36,933 nt of DNA, taken from positions 1-36,933 of IMG/VR virus record IMGVR_UViG_3300034418_010474; one strand, written 5' to 3'. Below, in pieces: positions 6,244 through 26,913 of this stretch (the stretch's first letter is position 1; each line of letters opens with the position of its first letter). The position numbers and the translations under genes were made by a program. Source of the stretch: a virus. Under the pieces are notes generated by a model that did not search any database, was not told the origin of the DNA, and was given only the letters and a program-made list of their open reading frames with translations.

Positions 6244-7631
6244 TGAGCAAGGCAACTGTATCTAAAAGAATATCGAATCAGCTTCTTAAAAAGTTATCCG
6301 CAGAGTACAATAAAGAAGTAAGAAAAGATGCCCAAAGTAAAAGACCTCAAATACTTCAGCTTTATGACTTAAATTTTATAAATGAAACTTTAGACCAATT
6401 TATTGAAAGAGGTAAGGGAAGTAAACAAATAAAGAATGTTAAAATTACAAAAAGTGATATAGATAAAGCCAGAAATATTGCAAAACGATACCAGTCAAAT
6501 TTTGTTCGTTCTAGAAAATATAAAGATGTCACTCAAACTTTAGAATTTGCTCATATTCAAGAAGTTTTACCCAATGTTGCAAAAGATATAGTCGAGGGAA
6601 AAAGTTTTATCATCTCTAGTTTTTCTACTACTGGAGCGATTAAAAAAGAAATAGTAGATTTTGTTCTTAAAGATAAAAGTAAATCACTAAGAGCGAGAGT
6701 AAAAGCAAAAATAGATAGAGGACATGGAGCCGCAGGAGGTACTGCAGTTTCTTCTTTGCAAATAGCTTCTGCAGCTTCTTTGGCTTCTTCTAAAGGTATA
6801 GATTTAGCTGCAGCCCCGGGTCTTGACGATTATTTAATTAATCAATTCACAGAATATGGAATTAGCTTAAAAAATATAGAAATAATAAAAGAAGTATTAG
6901 TCGAATATGAGTCTTTAGTAACTCCAAAAGGAGATTTAAAAGCAGAATATATTCCAATAATTACTTTTCAAGATTTTTATACAAATAGAGGAATAGATGC
7001 TAGGGAAGAAAAATTAATACTAGAAATTGTAAGAAAATTTTTTACTGAAACAATATCTGCGGATGCTCTTGTAAATATGCAAGGATCTAAAAGTTTAAAA
7101 GAGCAAATAGAGGCAGTAATAGCACTTCCTATTGTTAAAGTTGCTTTAAAAAATAAAAATGTAAAAAGTACTATTAAAAAAAGTACATCAGAGTCTGCGG
7201 GTAAAAAGAAAGCCCCTAGTAATACGTTGAATTCAGGAACTGCAGTTATTGCAGCAAAAAGAAAAGCTGCAAAAAAATCTTTTAGCAGAAAACCTGCTAA
7301 AGATACTCAAAGATCTATGTTTTCGATAATAGCAATGATTAATAGAAAATTGCCAACAACTGTAGAAAAAAACATGAAATATCCCACTCTAGAAAATAGA
7401 AGTGGAAGATTTGCAAATAGTGTTAGAGTATTAGATGTAATAGAAACACGAAAAGGCTTTCCTAGCTTTGGTTATACTTATGATAAAGAACCTTATCAAG
7501 TATTTGAAATGGGACGAGGAGCTCCCCCGTGGGCAACCCCTGACAGAGATCCAAGAAGTCTTATTGATAAATCTATCAGGGAAGTTGCAGCAGAAATGGC
7601 GTTAGGAAGATTTTATACTAGGAGACTATAG
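6243..7631 (+). CDS. Neck/tail-completion protein with long N-terminal extension
   Basis: Translation begins at a GTG that overlaps the preceding TAG. Of 462 residues, only the last 110 or so (from about MINRKLPTTVEKNMKYPTLE through VFEMGRGAPPWATPDRDP) resemble the HK97 gp10-like tail-completion proteins, which are normally 110-150 residues long. The first 330 residues are Lys-rich and mostly helical, contain a Gly/Ala/Ser stretch (KIDRGHGAAGGTAVSSLQIA near residues 156-175) and a Lys/Ser/Ala linker before the gp10-like part (about 310-350). I do not recognise this extension. The gene is strikingly AT-rich compared with the capsid gene. Position between connector and tail terminator supports a neck role; whether the extension is structural or enzymatic is unknown. 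Confidence 0.75.
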   Translation: MSKATVSKRISNQLLKKLSAEYNKEVRKDAQSKRPQILQLYDLNFINETLDQFIERGKGSKQIKNVKITKSDIDKARNIAKRYQSNFVRSRKYKDVTQTLEFAHIQEVLPNVAKDIVEGKSFIISSFSTTGAIKKEIVDFVLKDKSKSLRARVKAKIDRGHGAAGGTAVSSLQIASAASLASSKGIDLAAAPGLDDYLINQFTEYGISLKNIEIIKEVLVEYESLVTPKGDLKAEYIPIITFQDFYTNRGIDAREEKLILEIVRKFFTETISADALVNMQGSKSLKEQIEAVIALPIVKVALKNKNVKSTIKKSTSESAGKKKAPSNTLNSGTAVIAAKRKAAKKSFSRKPAKDTQRSMFSIIAMINRKLPTTVEKNMKYPTLENRSGRFANSVRVLDVIETRKGFPSFGYTYDKEPYQVFEMGRGAPPWATPDRDPRSLIDKSIREVAAEMALGRFYTRRL

Positions 7632-8089
7632 TGGCGGTAGATATAAGTAGACAATACACTAGCCGACGGTCTGCTATTACCAAAGCTTTAGCAGATAAAA
7701 TTGCAGAAATAGACGGTAGAGGTGTATACCATACTGCAGTTGCTGAAACCAGCTCTCGTCTTAAATTCTGGGATGAAGTTGAAGAATTTCCTGCTGTTCA
7801 TTTAAATGCAGGGTCCGAAACTCGGGAATACCAAGGCGGAGGCTATAAAGATAGATTTCTAAATATTACAATTCGATGTTATGTAAATCAAGAAGATGCA
7901 GTAGATGCTCTTGATGAGCTACTCGAAGATGTGGAAACAGTTTTAGAAAAAAATAGTAGATTTGCTTACTATGATAGAATGGGCTTAGAGCAAACTACTC
8001 AACAAATCACTATTATTAGTATTGATACTGATGAGGGTGTGTTAGAGCCTTTAGGAGTTGGAGAAATTCTTATTGAGGTTCGATACTAG
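7631..8089 (+). CDS. Tail terminator-like protein
   Basis: The 152-residue product is placed and sized like lambda gpU and the related tail-terminator family, the hexamer that caps the growing tail tube and binds the neck. It shows the typical pattern of an N-terminal helix (RRSAITKALADKIAEI), a strand with AVHLNAGSETREYQGGGYKD, the strand FLNITIRCYV, a long acidic helix (EDAVDALDELLEDVETVLEK) and a final strand ending in GEILIEVRY. It starts at a GTG overlapping the upstream stop. A leader of 62 bases separates it from the tail tube gene. Family assignment is from shape and order rather than a unique motif. Confidence 0.75.
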   Translation: MAVDISRQYTSRRSAITKALADKIAEIDGRGVYHTAVAETSSRLKFWDEVEEFPAVHLNAGSETREYQGGGYKDRFLNITIRCYVNQEDAVDALDELLEDVETVLEKNSRFAYYDRMGLEQTTQQITIISIDTDEGVLEPLGVGEILIEVRY

Positions 8090-8093
8090 AAAC

Positions 8094-8130
8094 GGCTGGC
8101 ACGAACAAACGTTCACGTCCAAGCCTTTTC
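8094..8130 (+). other. Imperfect hairpin before the tail tube gene
   Basis: GAAC (8103-8106) pairs with GTTC (8111-8114) around an AAAC loop, and GGCT (8094-8097) pairs with AGCC (8122-8125), with mismatches between, followed by TTTTC. It could be a weak terminator or a leader structure that stabilises the tube mRNA. A clear AGGAG ribosome-binding site follows at 8140-8144, seven bases before the ATG. Confidence 0.3.
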
Positions 8131-8151
8131 AAAGTTCATAGGAGATAAACT

Positions 8152-9726
8152 ATGGCTCAACAATTATACTTTAGTAGAGACTCAAAGCTCTATGTAGAGT
8201 TTGATAGTAAGTTGTGGGAAATTCCAGTATTAGATGGATTTAGCTTCTCGCAGTCTACTAATACCTCTGATATTACCCTTGCAGAAATGCAGGGCGCAGA
8301 TGGAATTAGTCGCCGAGGTCGTCGACTTTTTACGGACTCTCTTGCTCCGGCAGAATGGTCTTTTAGTACATATGTACGCCCTTTTTATACTGGCACAGAG
8401 CATCATGCAGTAGAAGAAGTTCTTTGGGGAATTATGGCAGGTGCAGATAAGTTTGGATCAGTTTCTTCAGCAGGATCAATTGATGCACTAACTCTTACAA
8501 CTGATACTGCAACAGATCGTACTCAAGGTACTTATCTTGTGGACGCCGCAGATACAACTTATAGCGGGACTTTGGGCACAGGTGCAACTTTTCAAATTTC
8601 TGTAAATGCTTCGGGTACAGCAAATGCAGTCCAAGTAGTCAGTGGTGGTACCGACTATACCGCTGCTGAGACTTTTACAGTTCCTGCTAGTCTTGTAGGT
8701 GATGGTACAGGTACCCTAACTGTAACAATTTCTACAGTTGATGCTGCTAGTAGTAATGCTTTTTATCGAAATCTAAATGTAGATGCAAATTCTGATTTTG
8801 ATGAGCTTGTTTCCATGCCTACAAATGCAAATAATACAATTAATTTTGGACAATCAAACAGAGCTGTACTTGCAACTTGTAATCTTTATTTTGTAATGGA
8901 AACAAGTACAACTAAACCAATGGTATATAAGCTCGTAAATGCCCAAATAAATGAAGCTTCAATTGATTTCGATGTAGATGGTATTGCTACAATTAACTGG
9001 TCAGGTTTTGCAAAAAATATTATAGATATGCAGTCAGCTGGGGATGTATTTGTACAATCTGGTACAAGTTTTGCAACTTCTAGAACAGCAGGAGATGTAA
9101 TCCTTGATAGCGCAGACGACCTTAAACTAGGTCTTTATACTGCGGCAACTTCAGGAGTTATGGCAATTGATGCAGGAGTTGACTCAACTGCAGCATTTAT
9201 TCGAAACCGTTTAACACAATGTATTGTAAATACTACAGATACTACTGCATTCCCTTCTGGAGATTATTATCTAACTCTTACCGGAGGAAATGTAACGGTT
9301 TCTAATAACATTACATATCTGGTACCTGAGGAATTAGGTAACGTAAACCTTCCGATTGAAGGTGTAACAGGCGGTCGAACAGTAACAGGCACCTTTAATT
9401 GTTATTTGACTCTTGATACTGCGGGTGCAGATAGAGGTTCTTCAGTTGATTTATTTAATGATATGACTACTGCGGGACAAGGTTTGGACAAGGTTGTAAA
9501 TGATTTCCAAGTTACTTTCCAAATTGGTGGTGCTGCTGCGGATGTTCCTCGTTTGTATATAAATATGCCGAAAGTCCATATTGATGTGCCGGTTCACTCA
9601 GTAGAAGATGTTATTTCTGTTGAAACTGGATTTGGTGCTTATACAGATGACTTTAATAAGGCAGATGAGCTTGTAATTACTTATTTCGGTGATACAGCTT
9701 CTGCAAATCAGCAATCCTATCCATAA
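8152..9726 (+). CDS. Major tail tube protein with inserted domains
   Basis: The 524-residue protein is the expected tail tube subunit. It follows the terminator-like gene, has a strong ribosome-binding site and a terminator behind it, and begins with a tube-like segment (KLWEIPVLDGFSFSQSTNTS, ITLAEMQG, LAPAEWSFSTYVRPF) that recurs in long-tailed phage tube proteins. It is two to three times the size of a minimal tube protein. Residues about 112-195 form a Gly/Thr-rich beta module (QGTY, TYSGTLGTG, SGGTDYTAAETFTVP) that breaks the tube fold and is also found in the L-like protein. A later Ser/Thr/Gly-rich part may be a surface domain. The C-terminal VPVHSVEDVISVETGF segment should return to the tube core. 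Confidence 0.85.
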   Translation: MAQQLYFSRDSKLYVEFDSKLWEIPVLDGFSFSQSTNTSDITLAEMQGADGISRRGRRLFTDSLAPAEWSFSTYVRPFYTGTEHHAVEEVLWGIMAGADKFGSVSSAGSIDALTLTTDTATDRTQGTYLVDAADTTYSGTLGTGATFQISVNASGTANAVQVVSGGTDYTAAETFTVPASLVGDGTGTLTVTISTVDAASSNAFYRNLNVDANSDFDELVSMPTNANNTINFGQSNRAVLATCNLYFVMETSTTKPMVYKLVNAQINEASIDFDVDGIATINWSGFAKNIIDMQSAGDVFVQSGTSFATSRTAGDVILDSADDLKLGLYTAATSGVMAIDAGVDSTAAFIRNRLTQCIVNTTDTTAFPSGDYYLTLTGGNVTVSNNITYLVPEELGNVNLPIEGVTGGRTVTGTFNCYLTLDTAGADRGSSVDLFNDMTTAGQGLDKVVNDFQVTFQIGGAAADVPRLYINMPKVHIDVPVHSVEDVISVETGFGAYTDDFNKADELVITYFGDTASANQQSYP

Positions 9727-9865: not shown

Positions 9866-10294
9866 ATGACAGATAAGAAAGAGCCTATCTCTCTCGCGAG
9901 TCTTATGACTCCAAGTAAAACAGTATCAATTAACTTTCCTGGGTATGAAGGATTTACAGTTAATTTGTGCCATTTGGCTCGAGAAGAACTTTTAAATCTT
10001 CGAAAACGTTGTTTAAGTACGAAGTTTAACAGAAAAACAAGACAGCCTGAAGAAGAAATAGATGATGAAAAGTTTTTAGTAGAATATTGTGCTGCAGTAA
10101 TTAAAGGGTGGAAGGGTTTAAAATTTCGATACCTAGAAGAGCTTCTTTTGGTTGATGTTTCTAAGCTTGACCCCGATGATGAACTGCCTTTTACAAAAGA
10201 TAATGCAGAACTTCTTATGAAGAATGCAAATAATTTTGATACTTGGGTAACAGAAACAGTAGGTGATCTCGAAAATTTTACCAGCAACAAGTAG
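9866..10294 (+). CDS. Tail assembly chaperone, G-like product
   Basis: This is the unshifted product (142 residues), the equivalent of lambda gpG. It binds the tape measure protein before tube polymerisation and does not stay in the virion. The N-terminus (ISLASLMTPSKTVSINFPGY) and the helical body (CHLAREELLNLRKRCLS, FLVEYCAAVIKGWKGLKF) resemble known G-type chaperones, including the WKGLKF motif. The frame ends at TAG 10292-10294, shortly after a slippery heptamer that permits extension into the T frame. The length is very close to that of lambda gpG (about 140). Promoter P2 and AAGGA at 9855-9859 lie upstream. Confidence 0.88.
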   Translation: MTDKKEPISLASLMTPSKTVSINFPGYEGFTVNLCHLAREELLNLRKRCLSTKFNRKTRQPEEEIDDEKFLVEYCAAVIKGWKGLKFRYLEELLLVDVSKLDPDDELPFTKDNAELLMKNANNFDTWVTETVGDLENFTSNK

Positions 10295-10713
10295 AGGAAA
10301 TTCTTCGTCTACTTGAAAGATATGTAAAAGAATCATCTTCTAGTATAGATGTTGAACAGTACTTAAAAATTTGCGAACAATTAGGTCAAGAACCTGATCC
10401 ATCTAAAATGCCGCTCGATTCTTCTGATTTTCCAGAGGAAGTTCAAGTGGCATTTTTTGTATTTAGTCTCCTCTCAGATAAGTGGGATGGGATGTCAGGA
10501 ACCTATCTAGGAAAAGATTGGTCATCTTGTGAATATATTTTTAAACTACATAAAATAAGTAATAAAAAAGATATATTTTTTATTATGAAACTGTGGGAAG
10601 GAGTAGTTATGAAATATAGAGCAGAAGAAGCAGAGAGAAAACGTAAAGCAGAGGAGCGTAAGTCTAAATCTGCAGGAGGTGGAAAAAACTACACCCATAA
10701 TGTGCGCGGCTAA
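9866..10713 (+). CDS. GT-like chaperone made by -1 frameshift
   Basis: The -1 frame relative to G is open from 10267 to its TAA at 10711-10713 and has no credible start of its own; the only ATG, at 10408, is internal and has no ribosome-binding site. A slip at 10273-10279 joins 138 G residues to 144 T residues, with a junction reading ENF then YQQQVEEILRLLERY, for 282 residues in all. That matches the lambda gpGT arrangement in order, frame direction and size. The T part ends in a charged helix (KYRAEEAERKRKAEERK), as expected for the segment that recruits tube subunits. The stop overlaps the tape measure ATG by one base (TAATG). Confidence 0.88.
10273..10279 (+). promoter_or_regulatory. Slippery heptamer for -1 frameshifting
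   Basis: The sequence A AAT TTT, read in the G frame, fits the X XXY YYZ rule (AAA, TTT, T). After slipping, the tRNAs re-pair on AAA and TTT. It is 13 bases before the G stop codon and falls inside the overlap between the G frame and the open T frame (10267-10294). Confidence 0.8.
10288..10315 (+). promoter_or_regulatory. Frameshift-stimulating hairpin
   Basis: CAAGTAGA (10288-10295) pairs perfectly with TCTACTTG (10308-10315). After one G-G mismatch, GAA (10297-10299) pairs with TTC (10304-10306) around an ATTC loop. The stem begins eight bases after the slippery heptamer, the usual distance for a structure that stalls the ribosome on the slip site. Confidence 0.7.
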
Positions 10714-13700
10714 TGGCAAAAAATAAGGTAATGATCGATGTAATTGTAGACGATAAAGGTACTACAAAACGCGTTGCTGTTGATGCTAAAAAATTAGGTG
10801 CGGCACTAGATGATACCGCCCGATCTGCAATAAATACCGAAAAAAATGCAAAGGGATTGGCCGGTACTGCTTCTGCTGGTGCTAAAAACTTTTCTAAGAT
10901 GGCGCAAGGGATTACGGGAGGCATTGTTCCCGCATATGCTGCTTTTGCTGCACAAATTTTTGCCTTAACTGCTGCCTTTAACTTTCTGAAAAGAGCGGCA
11001 GATTTAGAGAATTTAAGACAATCACAAATTTCTTATGCTCAAACGACAGGTCAAGCAGTAAATACAATTACAGAAAGACTAAAGCAAGCCTCCCAAGGCA
11101 TGCTAGGTTTTAGAGAAGCTGCTCAATCGGCTGCGATCGGAGCTGCAAAAGGGTTTTCTTCTTCTCAACTAGAAAGATTAGCAGAGGGGTCTGTAAAGTT
11201 ATCCGCTCGTCTAGGTAGAAGCTATGAGGATACTTATGATCGTTTAGTACGAGGTATTTCAAAAGCAGAACCTGAACTTCTCGATGAATTAGGAATTACG
11301 CTAAGATTAGAAACAGCTACAAGAAGATACGCTCAATCTTTAGGAGTTAATCAAAAAGCTTTAACAGAAGCTCAACGAAGTCAAGCTGTTTATAATGAAG
11401 CACTTAGGCAGCTTAATCAACAAACAGTAGGGGCCCCAGCTTTAGCAAATCAATTTGAAGTACTTTTAAAAACTTTTGAAGAAATTGCACAAAATATTAC
11501 TTCAAAACTCTTACCTTTATTTACATCTTTAGCAGATTTTATAAATAAAAATGCAGATGCGGCTGCTGTTGCATTTGCTGCTCTTGGTACTCTTATACTT
11601 GTAAATATTGCAGGCTTAAAAGATGGAATTAAAGCTTCGTTAGTAAGTTTAGCAGGATTTGCTGGATCTAGTATTGGGCTCGTGGGTAAAACGGCTGCTT
11701 TAACAGGTAAAGTTGTAGGAACTGGACTAGAGCCTATAATTAAAGAAATAAAAGAAGCAGAGGATAAGTTGCTTGTAGCCGCAAAAGATTCTGCAGCTAA
11801 AGCACGGAATGCTGCAAAAACTCTTGTAAGCACTGGGGCAAAAAGTACAACTTTACAAAAAATTGCAGAAGGAATCGAAGTAACCCCTCAAGCCTTAGGT
11901 AAGTTAAGAAAAGATTTAGCAAGAGTTAAAAAAGAAATACAAGAAACAGGAGAAACAGCGTCTTCTGCATTTGCCGGAGCTACGGTGGACTCTATAGAAG
12001 CGGTAGAAAAAGAGTTAAAAACTCTTGGACGAACAAGTCTTACTACAGGGCAGAAAATTAAAAAGGCAATGGCAATCACTGCCGCTGGAGGAGTAAAGCT
12101 TCTTAGAGGAAGTGTAACACTTGCTTCCTATGCTTTTAAAGGGTTAGGAACTGCAGCTAAAGTGTCTGGCGGCGTAATTAATAAAGCCATGTCCTTGGCA
12201 ATGAAAGGAACTTTTATTCTTGCAGGAATACAAGCGGTATATGAATTATTTCAAAAATTGGCAGAAACACCTTTAACTTTTGTAGAGAATGTAGAAGCCA
12301 TTGCAGCTAAAGTTATAAAAATATTCGAAGGAATAATTAATTTTGTAATTGGAGGAATAAATAGAATTGGAGAAGCTTTACCAGATAGATTTAAATTTGA
12401 AGTAGATACGGTAGACTTATCTGATCTTGCTGCAAATGTTAAAAATGCTACAGACACCGTTCTCTCTTTCGCAGGTACTAGTAGAAAAGCTCTTGCAGAA
12501 AGAGAAGCCCAAAATAAAAAAGAGGCAGAAATTAAGAAAAAAATTGATGAACAAAATGAAGCTTTAAGAAGACAACAAGCTATTGTACAAGCATTAAATA
12601 AGGATTTAGGAATAGCGAAGTTAGAAACGATAGAGCAGAGAAGTCAATTTATAAATACCCAGAGTATAGAAAAGCAAATCGAAGCCTATTTAAATGCACG
12701 AAATCAACTTCAAGAAGCTCAAAAAAGGGCTCCTAACTTAACGGGCCGTGAAAAAGTTGAAAATTTATACGAGCAAATGAATGCAGAAGCAACTATTAAG
12801 ATGGCTCAAGAAAATATTCTTGGAGTTCTGGAGCTAGCCCCTAAGCTAAAAGAAACTATTTTGGAAAGCTTAGGTATTGCAACTTACGAAGAAGCTCTTA
12901 ATAATCCAGAAATCTTGAAAAAACTAGGAGAAATATTTGCAAAACAAGGCGAAGAAAGTGCAAGTTCATTTATTCGAGAGCTTTCAAGTATCAAAGATGG
13001 AGCAAACCAACTATTGCAAGATTTAGGAGGGGGAGATATAGTAGCTGCAAGAGATACACTACAAGCACGTCTTAATTCTATTAAAAATATGGCAGGAACC
13101 CTAGGGGAAGATGAATTAACAAGCACCGCCGCAGGAATCAAAGAATTAAAACAGCAGCTAGCAGATGGCGGTTATACAGAAGAAGCGGACAAACTTTTAG
13201 AAACTTTAAATAAACTGATAGATGCAAGAAATCGATTGGATGTAAAACAGGCAAATTTAAAGGTACAAAAAGTACAAACAGAACAGCTTCCGGGGGCCTT
13301 AAGAACTCAGGGAACTTTAGAAAACAATGCAACAGAAGCAGCTTTAAAATTAGAAGAAGCTCGACTAGCTTTATTAGAATATTCGGCAGTTTCAGCAAAT
13401 GAAAGACAAATCAGCGAAGAAGTTTTTCAAGATAATGTTAGAAAGCGAGCATTTGCAATTCAAGAAGCTATAGAAGCAAAACGAATCGCAGATAGAAATC
13501 TAAGCGAAATTGGACAATTAGGAAATGCAGTAAGTGACTCTTTAGCCTCAAGTATGCAAAGTGCTTTTGACGGACTTATTCAAGGAACTATGTCTGCAAA
13601 AGAAGCTTTTGCAAGTATGGCAAAAAGTATGTTGCAAGCAATTGCAAAGGTTATTGCAGAACTTCTTGTTGCAAAACTATTAACCGCAGCTCTTGGGGGT

Positions 13701-17205: not shown

Positions 17206-20200
17206 ATGGTAACTCCTGTAAAAAGTAATCAACAACATATTTTTATACACGATGCTTTGTGCGAAGGCCCTATAGATGGACTTTTGTACGGAGATGCTTC
17301 TATTTTTCTTAATGGAAATCGAGTAAAAGATATTGATCCGGATGCTCCTTGGACTCCTGCAGGGGGCAAGATATATTTTGACTCTTCCGTAGATATAGCA
17401 GGCGATGTTAGCGCTGCAACTATACCTTCCACTATGGTAGGGATTCCAAAAAATTCTAATTTTATAGTATTACGAAGTGCAGGAATTAGTAAAACGAGCT
17501 CAAGTGCGGAAGGAACTAGTGGGAATATCTCTATTACAGGGACATCTGATTTTTCTATTGAATACAATACCTATAATCAAGGAGCTTCTGTTCCTTTACA
17601 ATACCCCACTGCGGGCTCTTTACCTTCCACTATAACGCCTTCAAATGGGGGGTCTGGGTACACGAGTGCTCCCACTGTAAAAGTAAAGTATAATGTTACG
17701 AACTTGGAAGTACCTAATGTTAAATATAATGCCACTATAACCAACGGAAGTGTAACAGCCATTACTTTGGATGCAAATATTAATAGTGGAAACACTGGGC
17801 TAACCGGGGTTTTTCGATTCGAAATAAGTTCCCCCGAATTAATTGATAATAGATTTATTGCTCTCGCAGACCCTACTACTAATGATATAATTGCAATCGG
17901 AGAAGGCAAGTGGTCTTCTGGAAGTACTTTAACATTTATTCCTTCTACAGTTAATTATAATCAAAATTATTGGTTAGCAAATAATAATATACCTTATAAA
18001 GTTCAAGTTATAGAAACTATAGAAATAACGCAAATAGACTCTACTTCCATTACTCTTGTTGATCCCCCTTCTTTAGGAGCAGGTACTTACTCTTTTACAC
18101 TAACAGGATCTAGGTCTCCAAGTGCTTCAGAATTAGATGCAGAAAATCCAGGATCTTCTGAAAATTTTGTAGCTCAATTTAGAGCTGGCAATACATTTCA
18201 AGACCCAATTACTGAATTAAATGGTGTTGGTGGAGGAACTTCCTATACCGTAGCCACAAATACTTTAACAAATATTATTTTAAGGCAGATAAACTACACA
18301 GTATGGAACACTAATAACCCAAATGATACCTTAACGGGGGTGCAAGTACATTCGACAACTGGCTACCCCGAAGGGCAAACTATTACTAGTGAAGGTAATA
18401 CAGAGCCTTTTGAAATTCAGGGAAGCAATTTTTCTGTAAATCCAGATGTTGTTAAAAGTTTAGATGAAGTTAGAATTTCTATAGGGTATAATTCATTACA
18501 AGCCATTCGTAAAGATAATGGTGACGATATATATAATTATGCTAAGTATCTTATTCAAATTGCAAGAAAGCCCCCGGGAGCCACCGAGTATGAAAAATAC
18601 AAGCATGCTTTTGAATCTGCCGATGGAACTTCTGTAGGTCAGATTGAACATTCAGGAAAAGACAGAAGTGCTGTTTCTTTTGAACACTACATTGATCTTT
18701 CTATAATTAAACCTTTTGAAGATTTTAAAATTCGAATATTTAGACTAACTCGACCAAAAGGGCGAGGGGTAAGGCAAGGAGGAGGAGACCAACCCCCAGA
18801 TTGGGATACAGATCAAGGCGATTCAACTTCTTCTATTACCAATGTCGTAGGAATAAATAAAGATAAATTTTCTTATCCGTATACCGCTCATGCAGGACTA
18901 TTTTTAGACTCTAAAGAGTTTACTTCTGTTCCTAGTAGAAGTTATGAAATTCGAGGAATGAAAGTAAAAGTTCCTCAAGGATATTTACCCAGAGAATACA
19001 GCACTGCTACCCAAAATAAGCCAGACGCTAATGGCACTGCCTATACAGTTCCTACTTACCCCAATTTTTGGTCGGGCTCTTTTAGCGACGAATTATATTA
19101 TACAAATAACCCTGTATGGGTCTTTTTAGATCTTATTACAAATGATCGTTTTGGGGCGGGAGAATGGATAAAGCTTTCCGACATAGATATATATTCTCTG
19201 TATAGAGTTTCAAAATATTGTGATGAGCTAGTTCCTGACGGAAAGGGGGGATATGAGCCTAGGTTTACAGCAAACTTGTACCTAGCAAAAGCGACTGATG
19301 TATATAAAGTTGTTAAAGATATGGCAACTATTTTTTCATCTATTGTGTATTGGATGGATGGAAAATTATCTACAGTATTAGATGCGCCGGGAGACCCTGT
19401 ATATAGTTTTTCCAAGGCGAATGTTCTTGACGGAGCTTTTGTATACGAAAGTACAGGGCAAAAAACAAGAGTTAATCAAGTTGTAGTAACTTGGAACGAC
19501 CCGAGTATTGGATATGAACAATCAAATGTTATAGTTGAGGATAGAAACGATATTGTTTCGTCTGGAAGAGTTATAAGTCAAAATGCTGTTGCTTTTGGCT
19601 GTACTTCCGAAGGGCAAGCACGAAGATATGGCAAATGGAAGCTTTTTACTGCACAAGGCCAAAGTGAAATTGTATCATTTAGAACTTCTTTTGAAGGTCT
19701 TTTTCTTAAGCCTGGAGATGTAATCGAAGTACAAGATGCTTCACGTTATGGGTCAATGCTTAGTGGCCGTGTTGCTGGAGTAACTACTGATGGTAGTAGT
19801 AACCATGTCGTTACAGTAGATAGACCTTTAACTTTAGATGCTAATAATACTTATAACTTAAATGTTCTTATAACAGAGCCTGCCGCGTTTTATGTGGGGG
19901 AAGATAGCCTTGAGCTAAGCAACACTGGAGTAGTAGTAAGCAGCGGAGGAACTCCATACTCTAGAGGCGATAGAATAATTACAGGTCTTTTTATTTGGGA
20001 TGAGGTGGACGAAGAGTACCAATCAACATTTATTGATACAGAAGAAAAAGCAAGTAACGCTTTTTACAGGGATGGAGCTACTACCTATAGGCCAATAGAA
20101 CTTTCTTGGAAAAAAGATACTTTTGTTGAAAGTAAGTCCGTAACTTCCTCTACTAACACCTCTGTTAGCGGGAACGCGGAAATAACTATATCGGGAACTT

Positions 20201-23200
20201 TTGAAACTGCTCCCTCAGTTAGCTCTGTATGGATGCTAGAAGAATTTTCTAGTGGTGTAAAAACAACAGGCTCTCCCGATCTTTATAAAGTTCTTGCAAT
20301 CGCACAAGATGAAAAGAATATTTATAGTATTTCCGCAGTAGAGCATTATAATGAAAAATACGCATTTGTAGATGATCCTGACTCTATCATAGACATTCCA
20401 GATGATGTTTATCCTACAGAACCAGAAACTATTATAAGCCCAACATCTGTTCGTATTTTACAAAATTCAAATGCTACTCGACCAAATGAAGAGTTAACTA
20501 TAGAGTGGGATTACCCAGAATTTGATAATAATGGCGATCCCACAAATAGGTTTTTAGATAGTTTCGAAGTATTACATACTATTCCTGGAAGGCAAAGTTC
20601 TTTCTTTACAGATAATAGAACTCGATCTTTATTTTTAGAAAACGTACCAGATGGTACTTATATGTTCCGAGTGCGCGCAATTTCTGTTTCTCAGAAGAAA
20701 TCGCCTTGGACATCTTTTAAATATACTGTTGATGACCCTTTTGGAGATAAAGTAAATAGAATAAAAGGAATTCAAACAGAAGGTCTTACTTCTGTATACC
20801 CGTTTATTACAAATGAAAGCCCCTCTACGGGAGGAAACTTACGGGGGGAATTTGATGGTACTTTGGGCGGGTATCCGAATAACGAAGATGGTTATAAAAC
20901 AGGGGATATTGTCACTAACATCAGTGGAGATTATAAATATCTTCCTTCTAGTATTAATGGTGGAGATCCTACAGATTTAACAACTTGGAAGGACTATAGA
21001 GGAGGTATTTTAAAATTTAGTGGCTCTAATAGTGTTACGATAGCTCCTAGTAGATTTAGGCGAAATAAGTCAGTAACTTTTGGCTCTTCTGCAAATATAG
21101 ATTGTAATTTTCTAAGAAAACCCTCTGATGAGTATTTTGGAGATTCTTCAGATGATGGAAGATTTTCTTATATAGCTGTTAATAATGATACAGAAGAGTT
21201 ACTAGCTGTAAGTAATACTGTAGATAGGGATTTTGGTGTTTTTTACTGGTATGATGTTATTCATGCCGACAACCCCTCAAATACAGGAGTTTATAAGCAT
21301 TGGAAAAATTTTAATAATACTCCTACTATTAGTATTACTGAAGATTCAAATAAAGTTACAGGGACTAATTTCGACGAGTTGGATAGTAATACTCCGATTT
21401 TATTTACAAAAGAACTTACTGCTAATGCTACAAATATTTCTTTTACTGCAAGTACAAAAACTATATCGTTACCTAGCCAGTATACCGCTGTTGAGGCTAT
21501 AAGTGATTTAATAGAAATAGAATCTTCTTCGGGAATTAATCAAGGAAGATTTACTATTGTTTCGAGAACATCCACTACAATTGTTGTAAAAGAGGCTTTA
21601 ATTGATGAAAGTGTGGGGGCCACAATAACTATACAGCAACCACTATTTATCGCAAAAGTTGCAAGAAAAGAATCCTCCACTGTAATGTATCTTGATCGGC
21701 TTGCTCCGATGACAATCAGATCGGTAGATAACCACAAAGTATTTAAGCCGCAGTATAACCCAGACTATCGTAATGATGTAATTGTAGGAAGAATAAGAAA
21801 TAATAATAGTCTTGGCAGAGGAAGTTTTCAATTTGATAACTTTTTAACTTTTGATCCTAATTTAGGCGGAGGAAGGGAAGTTCAAGTTGATAGTAATGTT
21901 GCATTTTTGCAATTTAATGCAGATCAAGAACAAGTTCTTGCACCAGATAATATAACTGTTACTGCAACTGCTTATGGTTTTGATAATCCCCAGTTTAAAA
22001 TAACTTATGGAGACCCTACTACTGAGCCTACTGATTCTAATGGTGGGTATACTATATTTGAACCCGCAGATACAACTCACAATACTCCCAGTGGAGGAGC
22101 TGTAGCAGTATACAAAAAAGAAATATGGGATGGTTCTAATCCTATAACATGGGGAACCGGTGGAAATATAGAAGTTCATGTATCTGTTATAGAAGAAGAA
22201 GACCCCGGTGATACTTCAAAACAAGCAATAGATTCTATATCAATTCCTCGAGTTGGGGATGTAGCTGCCGGAGAAGGTGGTCGCACTGTATTTCTTGAAT
22301 TAGAAGATTATGATATTGTTTACGGTTCAGGCGGTACACAACCTATATGGACAGGAGGCCCAACAGCTTCTGATTATATTTCTTCTCCTTTTACAACCGA
22401 CAGTCTAAGAATTACTGCTACCGCCGGGGCAGGTTTTGGTGATCCTATATTTAGATTTAAAGTAGGTGGAGTAGTTGTGCCTAAGACTACTGGAGGTGCA
22501 GACTGGTTTGACCCCGGTGGAGATATAGGCTTTGTTGACTGGCCTGTTCCTTATAGGTTATCTACAACCACAAATGGAGTAACAACCACTCCTTTTGGCT
22601 CCGAAGACGGAGGCAGTCTTATTGTAGTTGTAGACGTAGCAGAAAAACCCGACAATTGGACTTCAACTGTGCCGGGCTCGGGAGACAATACAAACGAACC
22701 TGCGACAGAGGATATTTATGCAAAAGATGTAGATAATATTTTAGCTCTTCGACTAGGTGCTGGAGGTATTGCCGCGAATTTCACAAATGATAGTCATGTA
22801 GTTGCCTGTACTCCAGAAGGCGTAGTAGTAAATAATGCAAATAATCAAGTTGTTAACTCTGGCGGAGTAATGAAAGTTTTCGAGGGTGGGGTCGCTTTAA
22901 AGTATGTTGCTAGTAACCCCAATCATGGAGAGTGGACTATTTCTGGTACTTCTACCACCGAAGACTATAATCAGAATACCGGTAAAGGCATACAGGTAGG
23001 CGCATTTACTCAAACCCAAGAATCGGGAGGAGATTATGTAGCAACTGTAGCTGATCATGTTTTTATAGGTTCTTTAGGAGACGATCCCTTTGAAGAACAA
23101 GAGTCAATTACATACGAAATCACAGTGCCTCAAGGAGCTGGAAAAACTGATTTGACTCTTGATGTATCTCAAACATTTGCTCTTGTAAAAGCTGGCCAAG

Positions 23201-26200
23201 GCGGGGTAGGACAAGTTTATTTATATAAAAGCGCAGCAGCTACTGCAACTCCTTCCAGCCCCTCTGCATCTTTTCCTCAAGTTAAAGTAAATCTTCAAAC
23301 CGGAGCAATTGATACAACTGGAACAGATCCTAATGGAGATGCCGTTTATGATGGAGACGATGAAGGATGGTACACAAGTGCTTCAGCAGCACAAGCTGTA
23401 GGCACTGCTGGACAGGTTGTATGGGTTGTTGCTGCCGCAGCCTCTGGATTTGAAACTTTTGATTATATAGAGAATGATGAGTGGACAACAGCGGCACAAT
23501 TTAATGGAGAGAATGGATTAAACTCAGCAACAATAGAAATATTTCAAGGAACAAATTCTTTAACTGCTCCCACTCTTCCTGAAGATATAGATTATACTTT
23601 TTCCTCGGGAGCTATAGCAGCAACGGGTAGTGGTACAGGATTGGGTTCCTGGTCTACAGATATGCCTGCCCCTTCAAAAACCGCTAAGTATGTTTGGAGA
23701 AGCGCGGCAGCTGCAATTAGTAACTCATCCACTGTCACAATTGATGGTACTGGCAGCGACCCTGCTGGAGAAGATTGGAGCACTCCTGAAATAGTTGCTC
23801 GTTTTTCTGCTGCCGATAAGATAATAGAGTACTATAAAAATACAACAACAAATACGGCTCCTACAACTCTGCCTGATATTACTTACGATTTTGATGACGA
23901 TAGTATTACTGTAACAGCGCTGTCAGGTTGGAGCCAAGACGCCTCCGGAGTAGATTCTACAAATTTATATGAATGGAGAGTAGATAAGAGAGTTGTCTAT
24001 CCCGATTCAGGTTCTACTGTAGCTATTAGTGGAAATGACTGGAACGGGCCTATACTCTTTTCTGCATATGGAGAAGTTGGAGAAGCAGCATACTCTGTTA
24101 GTGCAACAAATGTTAATCATACTTTTGTTGGCCAATCTGATGGCCTTGTAGATACTAATGATTTTTCATGTGGATTTGTTGTAAGAAAAGGAAGTCAAGC
24201 ATATACTTTTGCTGCGACTGGTACTGCTGCAAATACTTATTTTGTTACTACTTCTAGTCCTGTTAATTGCGTACCTTCTGTAAATTCTAGTACAGGAGCG
24301 GTTACCATAACAGGAACTTCTGATATTTTAGACACTTCCAGTGTTAAAACAGCAAGTTTTACTATACAAGTTCTAGACTTAGGCGATTCAAATGCTATTA
24401 TGGGAGAATTTGATGTAAGTCTGTCTAAAATTATTCTTACTCGTGGTGGTGGTGATTTTACAAAAACCTCTGCAACTAATGCCGCAGCTTGGAAAGGAAC
24501 CTTAACGAATGCGGCGGCGGTTGAAGCAGCGGCTTTTGTTATAGCTAATTCCGGGGACGGTTTTATAGTTCCAAATGATCGTGTTACAATGACAGATGGA
24601 ACAAATGCAGCAACGCGTATATATACTGGAGCAAGAACAGACACCTCGAGTACTGTCACTGCGGGCTCCTTTAGTAGTGTAGTAACAGAACTATTTGATG
24701 GAAGTGTTATTGTATCTGGGACTCTTTCAGCCGATAGACTTGCTGCAAATACTACTACCACAAATCAATTAAATGTTGGTAGTATATTGCAGGTAGGATC
24801 GCCGTCCGGGCCTGCTGCAGACGGCAAAGTGTACTCTGTAGGAAAAACATCTTATACGGATAATACTGCCGGATTTTATATGGACGGTAGTGGTAAAGTA
24901 AATATTGGTAATTCCTCTAATTTCATGAAATTTGATGGCAGTACTTTTAGTTTTGGAGGTGCTGGAGGCGGTACTCAAGCAGTAAAGTTTGTACAAATCT
25001 TTAAGATTAATGACAGTACTTTAGGATTCACTACAGGAAATGATGCAACAGATCAAACCTATTCTTCCCCATTAAATGGATTAGAGTCTGGCTGGAGCAC
25101 AACTATACCCACACCTGCTACAGGTGAAAGTATTTATGTAGCATCTAGAACCTTCACTTCTGACGGACAATCTCCTCAAACATCCTCTTGGGACGGTCCT
25201 ACTTTATATTCTTATATAGGCACTGATGGTGCTATCGGTCCGCAGGGCCCAGTAGGTCCTATTGGTCCAACGGGTGGTACAGGTCCTGCTGGAACCGGAG
25301 TTAATATTTATTTTACACGTACTAGTGGAACTCCAACGGCCACTGGGACTGCTGCTACTCCATCAGGCAATGTTACATGGTCTGATTCACCTCCTACAGG
25401 TACTACAAAACTATGGGCTGTAAAGGGTACTAGCACTAATGGTACTACTTGGACTTGGGGGTCTCCCTACGCTCTAGAAGGTACTTCTGCAGTAGAACAA
25501 TATGTATACCAGATAAAAAGTAATGGGGGAGCTGCAACGAGTAACCCTCCCGCAGATGGAACATATAACTTCAGTAACGGTAATTGGAGTGCTCCTAGTG
25601 GCTGGCAAAAAGGGGTTCCGACTATAACTGCAGATAATGAAGTAGTATATGTATCTTATGCGGTAGCTACGGGTACTCCTACTACTACAAACGCTACACT
25701 TGATTGGTCAAGCGCTGCAGTATATGCTAGAAGAAATGATGGTGCTATCGGTCCGCAGGGCCCAGTAGGTCCTATTGGTCCAACGGGTGGTACAGGTCCT
25801 ATCGGTCCGCAGGGCCCAGTAGGTCCAGTAGGTCCAGGGGGTCCGGCAGGCCCCACAGGCCCACTTGGGCCTAGTGGTTCTGCTTTTTACAATGTAGATG
25901 TTAATACTACTACAGCGGCAAGTTCACTTACCCCTACGAATGCTCAGGTATTGGCAGTAATTGGCAGATATGCCGTAGTAGGAGACATAGTTGTTCTTAC
26001 TACAAATAATACTACCACTCCTTCTTACGGCTGGAGATGTACAGTGGCACAATCTTCTTCAAGTAATGGCAGTTGGACTGCTGCTGCTACATTTATCTCA
26101 GGAGATTTAATCGTAGATGGAAGCATTGGAGCAAGTGAAATAAAAGCAAATGCAATTGATGCAAACCAGTTAGCAATTTCAAATGCAAATGCGGGAGGAA

Positions 26201-26304
26201 CTGGTATTTTTATGTTCTCTGGAACAGGCGGTCCAAAAATAAATATATATGAAAGTGGTACTCTTCGAGTTAAATTAGGAAACTTATCAACGACTGGCGA
26301 TTAA
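17206..26304 (+). CDS. Giant J-like tail tip/host-specificity protein with collagen stalks
   Basis: At 3032 residues this is nearly three times lambda gpJ (1132). The N-terminus has the J signature ([15 protein letters not shown]). Residues about 560-800 contain the tail-hub segment ([40 protein letters not shown]). A fibronectin type III-like domain lies around 1075-1175 (ELTIEWDYP to [13 protein letters not shown]). The C-terminal 1000 residues hold at least six related beta modules of about 95 residues (Y/F-x-K...TYDF...GW...P...W), around residues 2003, 2109, 2205, 2594, 2699 and 2765. Two collagen-like Gly-X-Y runs follow (2675-2698, 8 triplets; 2846-2893, 16 triplets). [20 protein letters not shown] and [20 protein letters not shown] are linker motifs typical of J-like tails. 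It is followed one base later by an oxygenase. Confidence 0.94.
23212..25740 (+). repeat. Degenerate beta-module repeats in the J-like protein
   Basis: At least six protein-level repeats begin near 23212, 23530, 23818, 24985, 25300 and 25497. Each runs from a hydrophobic strand (such as QVYLYK, IEIFQG, VQIFKI, YVYQIK), through a Pro/Thr-rich loop and TYDF- or TYNF-like strand, to GW and a final W-x-x-x-x-x-Y/F strand. They are diverged at the DNA level, so they are old relative to the exact 63-base repeats beside them. Confidence 0.7.
25225..25287 (+). repeat. 63-base exact direct repeat, copy 1 (first collagen run)
   Basis: This 63-base block is identical to 25738-25800. It encodes [20 protein letters not shown] plus the next Pro. 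With the following triplets it forms a collagen-like run of eight Gly-X-Y triplets (25228-25299). Confidence 0.95.
25738..25800 (+). repeat. 63-base exact direct repeat, copy 2 (second collagen run)
   Basis: This block is identical to 25225-25287. It is followed directly by a partial third copy (25801-25826, matching 25234-25259), giving an uninterrupted run of 16 Gly-X-Y triplets from 25741 to 25884. Every proline in the run is in the second position of its triplet. Confidence 0.95.
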
Positions 26305-26305
26305 A

Positions 26306-26866
26306 ATGAAAAAAATAATAGATACTCCTCTCTCTTTATGGAGAGGAGAGTTTTCTTCCGAAATATGTAGAAAAATAATAGCAGAAGGTTTAGAGTTAGA
26401 CTTAGAAACTGCAGGAATTGATAAAACCATAGATACAAATATTCGTAAAAATAAAGTGGGCTGGTTCGAAGAAAACGGTTGGGTAGATAACTTATTATTT
26501 AATTATGTATCTAAAACAAATATGTTAAATGGTTGGAATTTTCATATAACCGATAAAGAAAAACCGCAGTTTACAGTTTATGAATCGAATGAGTTTTATA
26601 ATTGGCACAGAGATTGTGACGTAACTCTACCTCTGCAAAGAAAAATTTCAGTAACGGTTCAATTATCAAATCCTTTTACTTACGAAGGAGGAGACTTTAA
26701 TATAAAAGACTATTGGGGGCAAAACGATTTAGATATTCATCCTGATAGTAAAATAGAAGGAACTATTATAATATTTGCTTCGAGTCTTTTACATACAGTC
26801 TTTCCTGTTACACAAGGTGTTAGGTATTCATTAGTACAGTGGTATTCAGGGCCAGATTTTATATAA
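26306..26866 (+). CDS. 2OG-Fe(II) oxygenase, prolyl-4-hydroxylase-like
   Basis: The 186-residue protein has the double-stranded beta-helix motifs of 2-oxoglutarate/iron(II) dioxygenases. The iron triad is H101 and D103 (YNWHRDCD) and H163 (SLLHTVFPV), and R173 (QGVRYSLVQWYSGP) should bind 2-oxoglutarate. YEGGDFNI (126-133) is the strand typical of PKHD/prolyl hydroxylases. Such enzymes hydroxylate proline or other residues using O2, 2-oxoglutarate and Fe(II). The gene starts one base after the J-like stop and ends just before promoter P3, so it is co-expressed with the collagen-containing tip protein rather than with the fibres. That makes the tip protein an attractive substrate, but the substrate is not shown by the sequence; oxygenases of this kind in marine phages may have other targets. 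Confidence 0.9.
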   Translation: MKKIIDTPLSLWRGEFSSEICRKIIAEGLELDLETAGIDKTIDTNIRKNKVGWFEENGWVDNLLFNYVSKTNMLNGWNFHITDKEKPQFTVYESNEFYNWHRDCDVTLPLQRKISVTVQLSNPFTYEGGDFNIKDYWGQNDLDIHPDSKIEGTIIIFASSLLHTVFPVTQGVRYSLVQWYSGPDFI

Positions 26867-26884: not shown

Positions 26885-26913
26885 TTGACATAGAATGTCC
26901 CCTTTGTTATAAT
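26885..26913 (+). promoter_or_regulatory. Promoter P3, perfect sigma70 consensus with extended -10
   Basis: TTGACA (26885-26890) and TATAAT (26908-26913) are exactly 17 bases apart, and TGT precedes the -10 box, giving an extended -10 element. The predicted start near 26920 leaves a leader of only about 15 bases, containing AGGAG (26922-26926) before the ATG at 26935. It should drive the fibre genes. Confidence 0.92.

Follow-up and report, generated by a model that had tools for sequence, protein, structure and literature searches.

The 36,933 nt stretch analyzed here (the window; IMG/VR record IMGVR_UViG_3300034418_010474, positions 1 to 36,933) represents part of the genome of a marine tailed phage. 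Its gene order resembles that of siphoviruses: the terminase, portal, protease/capsid, adaptor and tail tube genes are followed by those for the tape measure, minor tail proteins, a tail assembly protein, and a J-type tail tip or central fibre protein (J). The C-terminal part of J carries two collagen-like Gly-X-Y runs, and the open reading frame that begins 1 base past the J stop codon encodes a small 2-oxoglutarate (2OG)-Fe(II) oxygenase, downstream of which a consensus sigma-70 promoter (12 of 12 positions) opens the next transcription unit (Table 1). The 1-base gap and the perfect promoter behind the oxygenase gene indicate that J and the oxygenase end one transcription unit. In the related loci L005-L008, the start codon of the oxygenase overlaps the final base of the J stop codon. 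The original prediction, made from the sequence alone, had described this gene pair as a prolyl hydroxylase-like oxygenase coupled to a collagen-bearing tip protein, with the oxygenase as the very next gene and a new promoter behind it, and the arrangement of the locus bears out this description.

The second run comprises 16 perfect Gly-X-Y triplets, as predicted, whereas the first, predicted to have 8, has 9, or 8 if it is begun at GAI. The runs exceed chance expectation, as shuffling the C-terminal residues of J 10,000 times never yielded runs of at least 8 triplets, but the Pfam Collagen family (PF01391) scored only 23.4 bits on J, under its cut-off of 27.2, because the runs are short. Proline occupies the X position in 18 of the 25 triplets and the Y position in none, so that all prolines indeed sit in the second triplet position; lysine is absent from the runs. 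The collagen module is internally duplicated, and part of both runs was duplicated recently at the DNA level.

Table 1. Features of the J-oxygenase locus and genes for LH3-like enzymes in related phage loci (positions in the window unless a locus is named).
Feature	Position	Strand	Evidence or remark
J-type tail tip / central fibre protein, 3,032 aa, presumed substrate	17206..26304	+	phrog_31, E=9.9e-136; PF13550, E=4.8e-22
73-nt DNA repeat, copy 1	25215..25287	+	
Gly-X-Y run 1, 9 triplets, aa 2672-2698	25219..25299	+	triplet count
73-nt DNA repeat, copy 2	25728-25800		95% identical
Gly-X-Y run 2, 16 triplets, aa 2846-2893, Pro at X only	25741..25884	+	triplet count
73-nt DNA repeat, copy 3, partial	25782-25854		71%
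2OG-Fe(II) oxygenase, 186 aa, proposed tip-collagen prolyl hydroxylase	26306..26866	+	PF13640, 49 bits (cut-off 27); phrog_61, E=9.6e-30
H101 and D103 codons (HxD iron ligands)	26606..26614	+	invariant in 40 relatives
H163 codon (third iron ligand)	26792..26794	+	invariant in 40 relatives
R173 codon, H+10 (2OG carboxylate binder)	26822..26824	+	invariant in 40 relatives
Consensus sigma-70 promoter, TTGACA-17-TATAAT, opens next transcription unit	26885..26913	+	12/12 match
LH3-like gene	L172:9379-11136		
LH3-like gene	L182:4381-6165		
LH3-like gene	L193:3169-4907		
LH3-like gene	L326:6998-8767		CRP-6 gp58
LH3-like gene	L124:8540-10384		S-CAM9

Both its score and its HxD...H triad place the oxygenase in the PF13640 superfamily. 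Prolyl 4-hydroxylase (P4H) motifs had been predicted, and the iron ligands and the 2OG-binding arginine are all present; what did not hold is the likeness to the animal enzymes, as an arginine at H+10 is not the signature of animal collagen P4Hs (C-P4Hs). These have a lysine at H+10, which binds 2OG, and the arginine resembles the arrangement in prolyl hydroxylase domain enzymes (PHDs), prolyl 3-hydroxylases and lysyl hydroxylases. Membership in the animal C-P4H type was rejected, since Arg173 replaces lysine at H163+10 in all relatives and the protein is a single 186-aa domain, without the separate peptide-substrate-binding domain and the protein disulfide isomerase partner of C-P4H. Membership in the LH3/PLOD group of lysyl hydroxylase-glycosyltransferases was rejected as well, because the enzyme has no glycosyltransferase (GT) domain (PF25342) and the window collagen has no lysine.

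An AlphaFold2 model built from an alignment of 40 relatives had a pLDDT of 92.4 and a pTM of 0.89. In a Foldseek search of the PDB with this model, the best match was the P4H of Pseudomonas putida (4j25, E=1.5e-12), and the further top matches comprised PHD2, the PHDs of Dictyostelium and Trichoplax, the viral collagen prolyl hydroxylase (vCPH) of PBCV-1 (Paramecium bursaria Chlorella virus 1; 5c5t) and 6t8m, interspersed with PiuC. The predicted double-stranded beta-helix is thus closest to the prolyl hydroxylases, with P. putida PPHD (4j25, 4iw3) and the PHDs of hypoxia-inducible factor (HIF) as the best fold matches (TM 0.67-0.76 for the model). These enzymes, which have an arginine at the 2OG-binding position like the window enzyme, share 16-22% identity with it and are known to act on EF-Tu and HIF rather than on collagen. 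A sequence-profile search of the PDB ranked hydroxylases of the PKHD type first (PiuC/YbiX; 3dkq, 9ghl, 9qn1; E=1.8e-12) and P4Hs lower; the PiuC proteins are longer (225-243 aa), function in iron uptake, and fit the model less well than PPHD (TM of about 0.6).

Since the P. putida P4H heads the fold matches, also in its complex with EF-Tu, the phage enzyme might hydroxylate a host protein, such as EF-Tu as in Pseudomonas, and thereby tune translation in the infected cell, its slot behind the tip gene being a convenience of late expression. Some other substrate must also exist for the family members, described below, that are part of replication modules or occur in cyanophages without collagen. 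A host target is nevertheless unlikely, because it leaves unexplained both the collagen beside the tail-linked members of the family and the tracking of collagen proline with the enzyme in a group of phages considered further below.

To place the gene pair in context, hundreds of phage loci were surveyed; relatives were gathered from IMG/VR by the oxygenase sequence and by the conserved J domain, and from cultured phages by tblastn. For the enzyme census, the loci were dereplicated and those found through a collagen pattern were removed, so that the selection was blind to collagen; linkage was scored when a collagen-like gene lay at most four genes from the oxygenase. Outside of one clade located in replication modules, between the genes for DNA polymerase and a UvsW-like helicase, 32 of the 39 oxygenases were linked to collagen; the seven collagen-free loci with adequate flanks were L005 plus six records, divergent and of cyanophage or marine origin, and a further five loci were not judgeable. 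In the replication-module clade, collagen was nearby in 0 of 23 cases. The background frequencies of genes with collagen within the same distance were 0 of 508 in the contigs of the helicase-linked clade, 0 of 302 in the cyanophage loci, and about 10% in related J loci that lack the enzyme. The linked collagen occurs in fibres of various types, from J tips through to fibres that stand alone. Thus, the expected co-occurrence of the oxygenase with collagen-like proteins was found, at a frequency far above that for other genes in comparable loci.

Linkage of this kind could also arise by hitchhiking, if the tail-fibre region of marine phages, being variable, collects both collagen-bearing fibres and oxygenases. 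Tail-fibre regions are hot spots of gene exchange, arrays of cyanophage oxygenases occur near collagen-free fibres, and collagen is common without the enzyme. However, random genes of comparable tail loci have collagen nearby in about 10% of the cases, compared with 82% for these oxygenases, and hitchhiking would not account for the association of proline in the collagen with the small oxygenase, and of lysine with a second enzyme (see below), which makes it a very unlikely explanation.

Two observations concern the layout of the linked loci. In L176 (oxygenase at 10001-10513) and L195, the collagen gene is located directly downstream, not upstream, of the oxygenase, and the gene order of the module is therefore variable. 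In L359 and L362, a 963-aa protein that contains 167 Gly-X-Y triplets is encoded downstream of arrays of 2OG oxygenases, about seven in number and weakly related.

In a comparison of 33 distinct J proteins, 6 or more consecutive triplets were present in 9 of the 10 with an adjacent oxygenase and in 6 of the 23 without one (Fisher p=0.0015, or about 0.01 with near-copies collapsed; both values ignore relatedness). The original prediction had named homologues beside tip proteins without Gly-X-Y runs as counter-evidence, and only one of the 10 J-linked loci, L005, is of this type; its J protein has retained, at the equivalent place, the short element GPPGPPG. The J tree offers four independent contrasts, in which collagen tracks the enzyme in two or three under most pairings and opposes it in none. 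The sister J of the window protein (L025, 74% identity in the conserved part) has neither enzyme nor collagen. The oxygenase clade of the window comprises four distinct enzymes, three with long collagen runs and a fourth with the short GPPGPPG, and according to the J tree it is found on two distinct J backbones, each with collagen.

A second enzyme provides information on the target residue. In many loci, the next gene encodes a protein of 580-635 aa that combines GT25 and PLOD-GT domains with a 2OG oxygenase (PF25342, E=1e-44; for the oxygenase part, the score is near the PF13640 cut-off) and matches human LH3 and COLGALT1 as well as mimivirus L230 and R699. From the lysine-rich collagen of the cyanophages S-CAM9 and S-PRM1, an LH3-like enzyme was predicted, and in S-CAM9 a neighboring 614-aa protein confirmed this prediction (E=7.6e-47). 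The enzyme is also present in the Roseobacter phage CRP-6 and in S-8S53/55/56; in CRP-6, S-CAM9 and S-PRM1 it is annotated as a hypothetical protein. Collagens beside the LH3-like enzyme have lysine at Y in 14-51% of the triplets (excluding a reverse-strand artefact in L339), and for L258, with lysine-rich collagen and no linked LH3-like gene, both enzymes are present in the record. Directly downstream of the LH3-like gene in L172, positions 11129-11677 encode an FkbM-type methyltransferase, possibly for further modification of the fibre or of a glycan.

Among the records with an LH3-like enzyme, the X-Pro content of the collagen was 13-54% in all that also have the small oxygenase and 0-6% in all six that do not (CRP-6, L337, L346, L347, L350, L351); of these, CRP-6 gives the firmest case for absence of the small oxygenase, as its genome is complete and the other five records are fragments. 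S-PRM1 and S-CAM9 encode both enzymes, and their collagen has Pro at X and Lys at Y. The proline effect in these phages is nearly all-or-none, and in the one apparent exception, L344, the small oxygenase was found elsewhere in the 56.6-kb record. In the tree of the LH3-like enzymes, the three independent contrasts all agree in direction (best sign-test p=0.25). More generally, of 74 collagens located close to a small oxygenase, 73 have more than 10% proline, and X-Pro with threonine at Y is the dominant register of the enzyme-linked phage collagens. Because collagen proline is present with the small oxygenase and nearly absent without it among the LH3-bearing phages, proline is the likely target. 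Lysine was rejected as the target in the window, where the Gly-X-Y runs contain none.

The oxygenase might instead modify the tail protein elsewhere, for example at threonine, asparagine or aspartate residues or at a globular site of J. Such a target would fit the observations that the Y position in the large collagen-linked clade is most often threonine, that proline is at X in the window and at Y in sister loci, and that L005 retains the enzyme with only the short GPPGPPG. However, proline is common to all linked collagens, and it is proline alone that vanishes when the small oxygenase is absent; a target other than the Gly-X-Y prolines is therefore rather improbable. On balance, we slightly favor the view that tailed phages run a modular system of collagen modification, in which the small oxygenase acts on X-Pro and the LH3-like enzyme hydroxylates and glycosylates Y-Lys, with the repeats co-evolving. 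Fibres would then carry modifiable prolines only, lysines only, or both, depending on the enzymes encoded, and the window phage would belong to the proline-only type.

Several results weigh against a role of the oxygenase in collagen modification, or at least restrict it. The nearest kin outside of the window's own clade adjoin the UvsW-like helicase and have no collagen nearby, and many T4-like cyanophages with a uvsW-adjacent homologue have zero PF01391 collagen. Bacterial homologues (40-44% identity) adjoin collagen in only 1 of about 17 loci, and the oxygenase is missing near 45 of the 54 assessable proline-rich collagens of the GPT type that were found in a pattern scan for such genes. 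The proline register varies within the clade, being X in the window, mostly Y in L006, and mixed in L008 and L009. The sign tests on the J tree and on the LH3 tree have too few contrasts to reach significance, and an approximately unbiased (AU) test (p=0.40) does not separate a single origin of the collagen linkage of the window clade from repeated recruitment; a convergent origin, which a first tree had seemed to favor, was dropped as a claim on this basis.

The helicase-linked kin and the cyanophages without collagen imply that the family has more than one substrate and is not exclusive to collagen; the helicase-linked clade needs another one. Oxygenases of the same family between DNA polymerase and UvsW-like helicase, a position also found in T4-like cyanophages, were observed in L014 (10001-10573) and in about 22 further distinct loci. 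Conversely, since the enzyme is absent near most proline-rich collagens, collagen proline does not require it. The notion that all phage collagens need a hydroxylase was rejected, with the oxygenase near 9 of the 54 GPT-type loci and other HxD...H proteins near 7 of 46. The dependence is one-way, as expected of a modifier: the enzyme implies collagen, and collagen does not imply the enzyme.

A search of the genome-contig collection with the window protein found no cellular relatives, and a profile of the main collagen clade matched alphaproteobacterial homologues. One of them, on the Erythrobacter genome contig L385, immediately follows a gene for a collagen protein of 100 triplets, so that the pairing of enzyme and collagen is also present in a bacterial genome or prophage. 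The other homologues adjoin unrelated or repeat proteins. In L382, from SAR116, a repeat protein that is not collagen (EVPTVDTNEAIASADE..., 6880-7938) precedes the homologue (8001-8537) and is possibly another proline-containing repeat substrate.

Virus-encoded hydroxylases that share the fold class of the window enzyme are PBCV-1 vCPH and mimivirus L230, a lysyl hydroxylase/glycosyltransferase that acts on the virus's own collagen-like proteins (reviewed in PMC9614988). The viruses that encode them infect eukaryotes, whereas the window enzyme belongs to a tailed bacteriophage and is encoded in one operon with the tail tip; its identity to vCPH is about 19%. The P4H of Bacillus anthracis is prokaryotic and is reported to modify prolines at X as well as at Y in peptides of the (PPG)n type (PMC8968730), but its gene is chromosomal and unlinked to a phage fibre. 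The 2OG-Fe(II) oxygenases of cyanophages in phrog_61 belong to the family of the window enzyme, with several members among tail-fibre genes and many beside uvsW in genomes without collagen. Earlier work read the cyanophage 2OG oxygenases as modulators of 2OG and nitrogen or as DNA repair enzymes, with collagen unmentioned (PMC3037559). The concern, raised in the original prediction, that proline at X instead of Y speaks against a collagen substrate carries little weight, because X-Pro dominates the enzyme-linked phage collagens and the B. anthracis enzyme modifies X as well.

Taken together, we consider it likely that the oxygenase is a phage protein hydroxylase that acts on the Gly-X-Y prolines of the tail-tip protein encoded upstream, and, judging from sequence comparisons, phages probably modify their own collagen fibres chemically. 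The adjacent genes, the 1-base gap and the equivalent operon position in relatives suggest that the enzyme would be made late, together with its substrate. With Fe(II), 2OG and O2, it would hydroxylate prolines while the chain is still nascent and the trimer not yet folded, in the window presumably the X-position prolines (18 sites per chain), at C3 or C4. Hydroxylation may alter the stability or the surface chemistry of the stalk. In the peptides of Bann and Bachinger, Gly-4Hyp-Thr repeats (4Hyp, 4-hydroxyproline) reportedly form stable triple helices and Gly-Pro-Thr repeats do not; if this holds, hydroxylation at X would, by analogy, be stabilizing.

In the open-access literature, we found no report of an operon pairing of oxygenase and collagen in phages or of an LH3-like phage enzyme. 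Virus-encoded collagen hydroxylases are already known from eukaryotic viruses, while LH3-like enzymes in phages are apparently unreported. Bacteria and viruses have been described as lacking the prolyl hydroxylases needed for collagen, with prophage collagens compensating by X-Pro (PMC3368898); what viral prolyl hydroxylases do has been termed cryptic, with collagen named as one possible field of action for viral P4H (PMC9301287). If the proposed function is correct, animal-style modification of collagen extends to bacteriophages, where it is tied to tail fibres and hence to host attachment. It would also supply a substrate for phage oxygenases of a large family that is currently classed with the auxiliary metabolic genes, and would offer compact hydroxylase-collagen pairs for producing hydroxylated collagen in bacteria.

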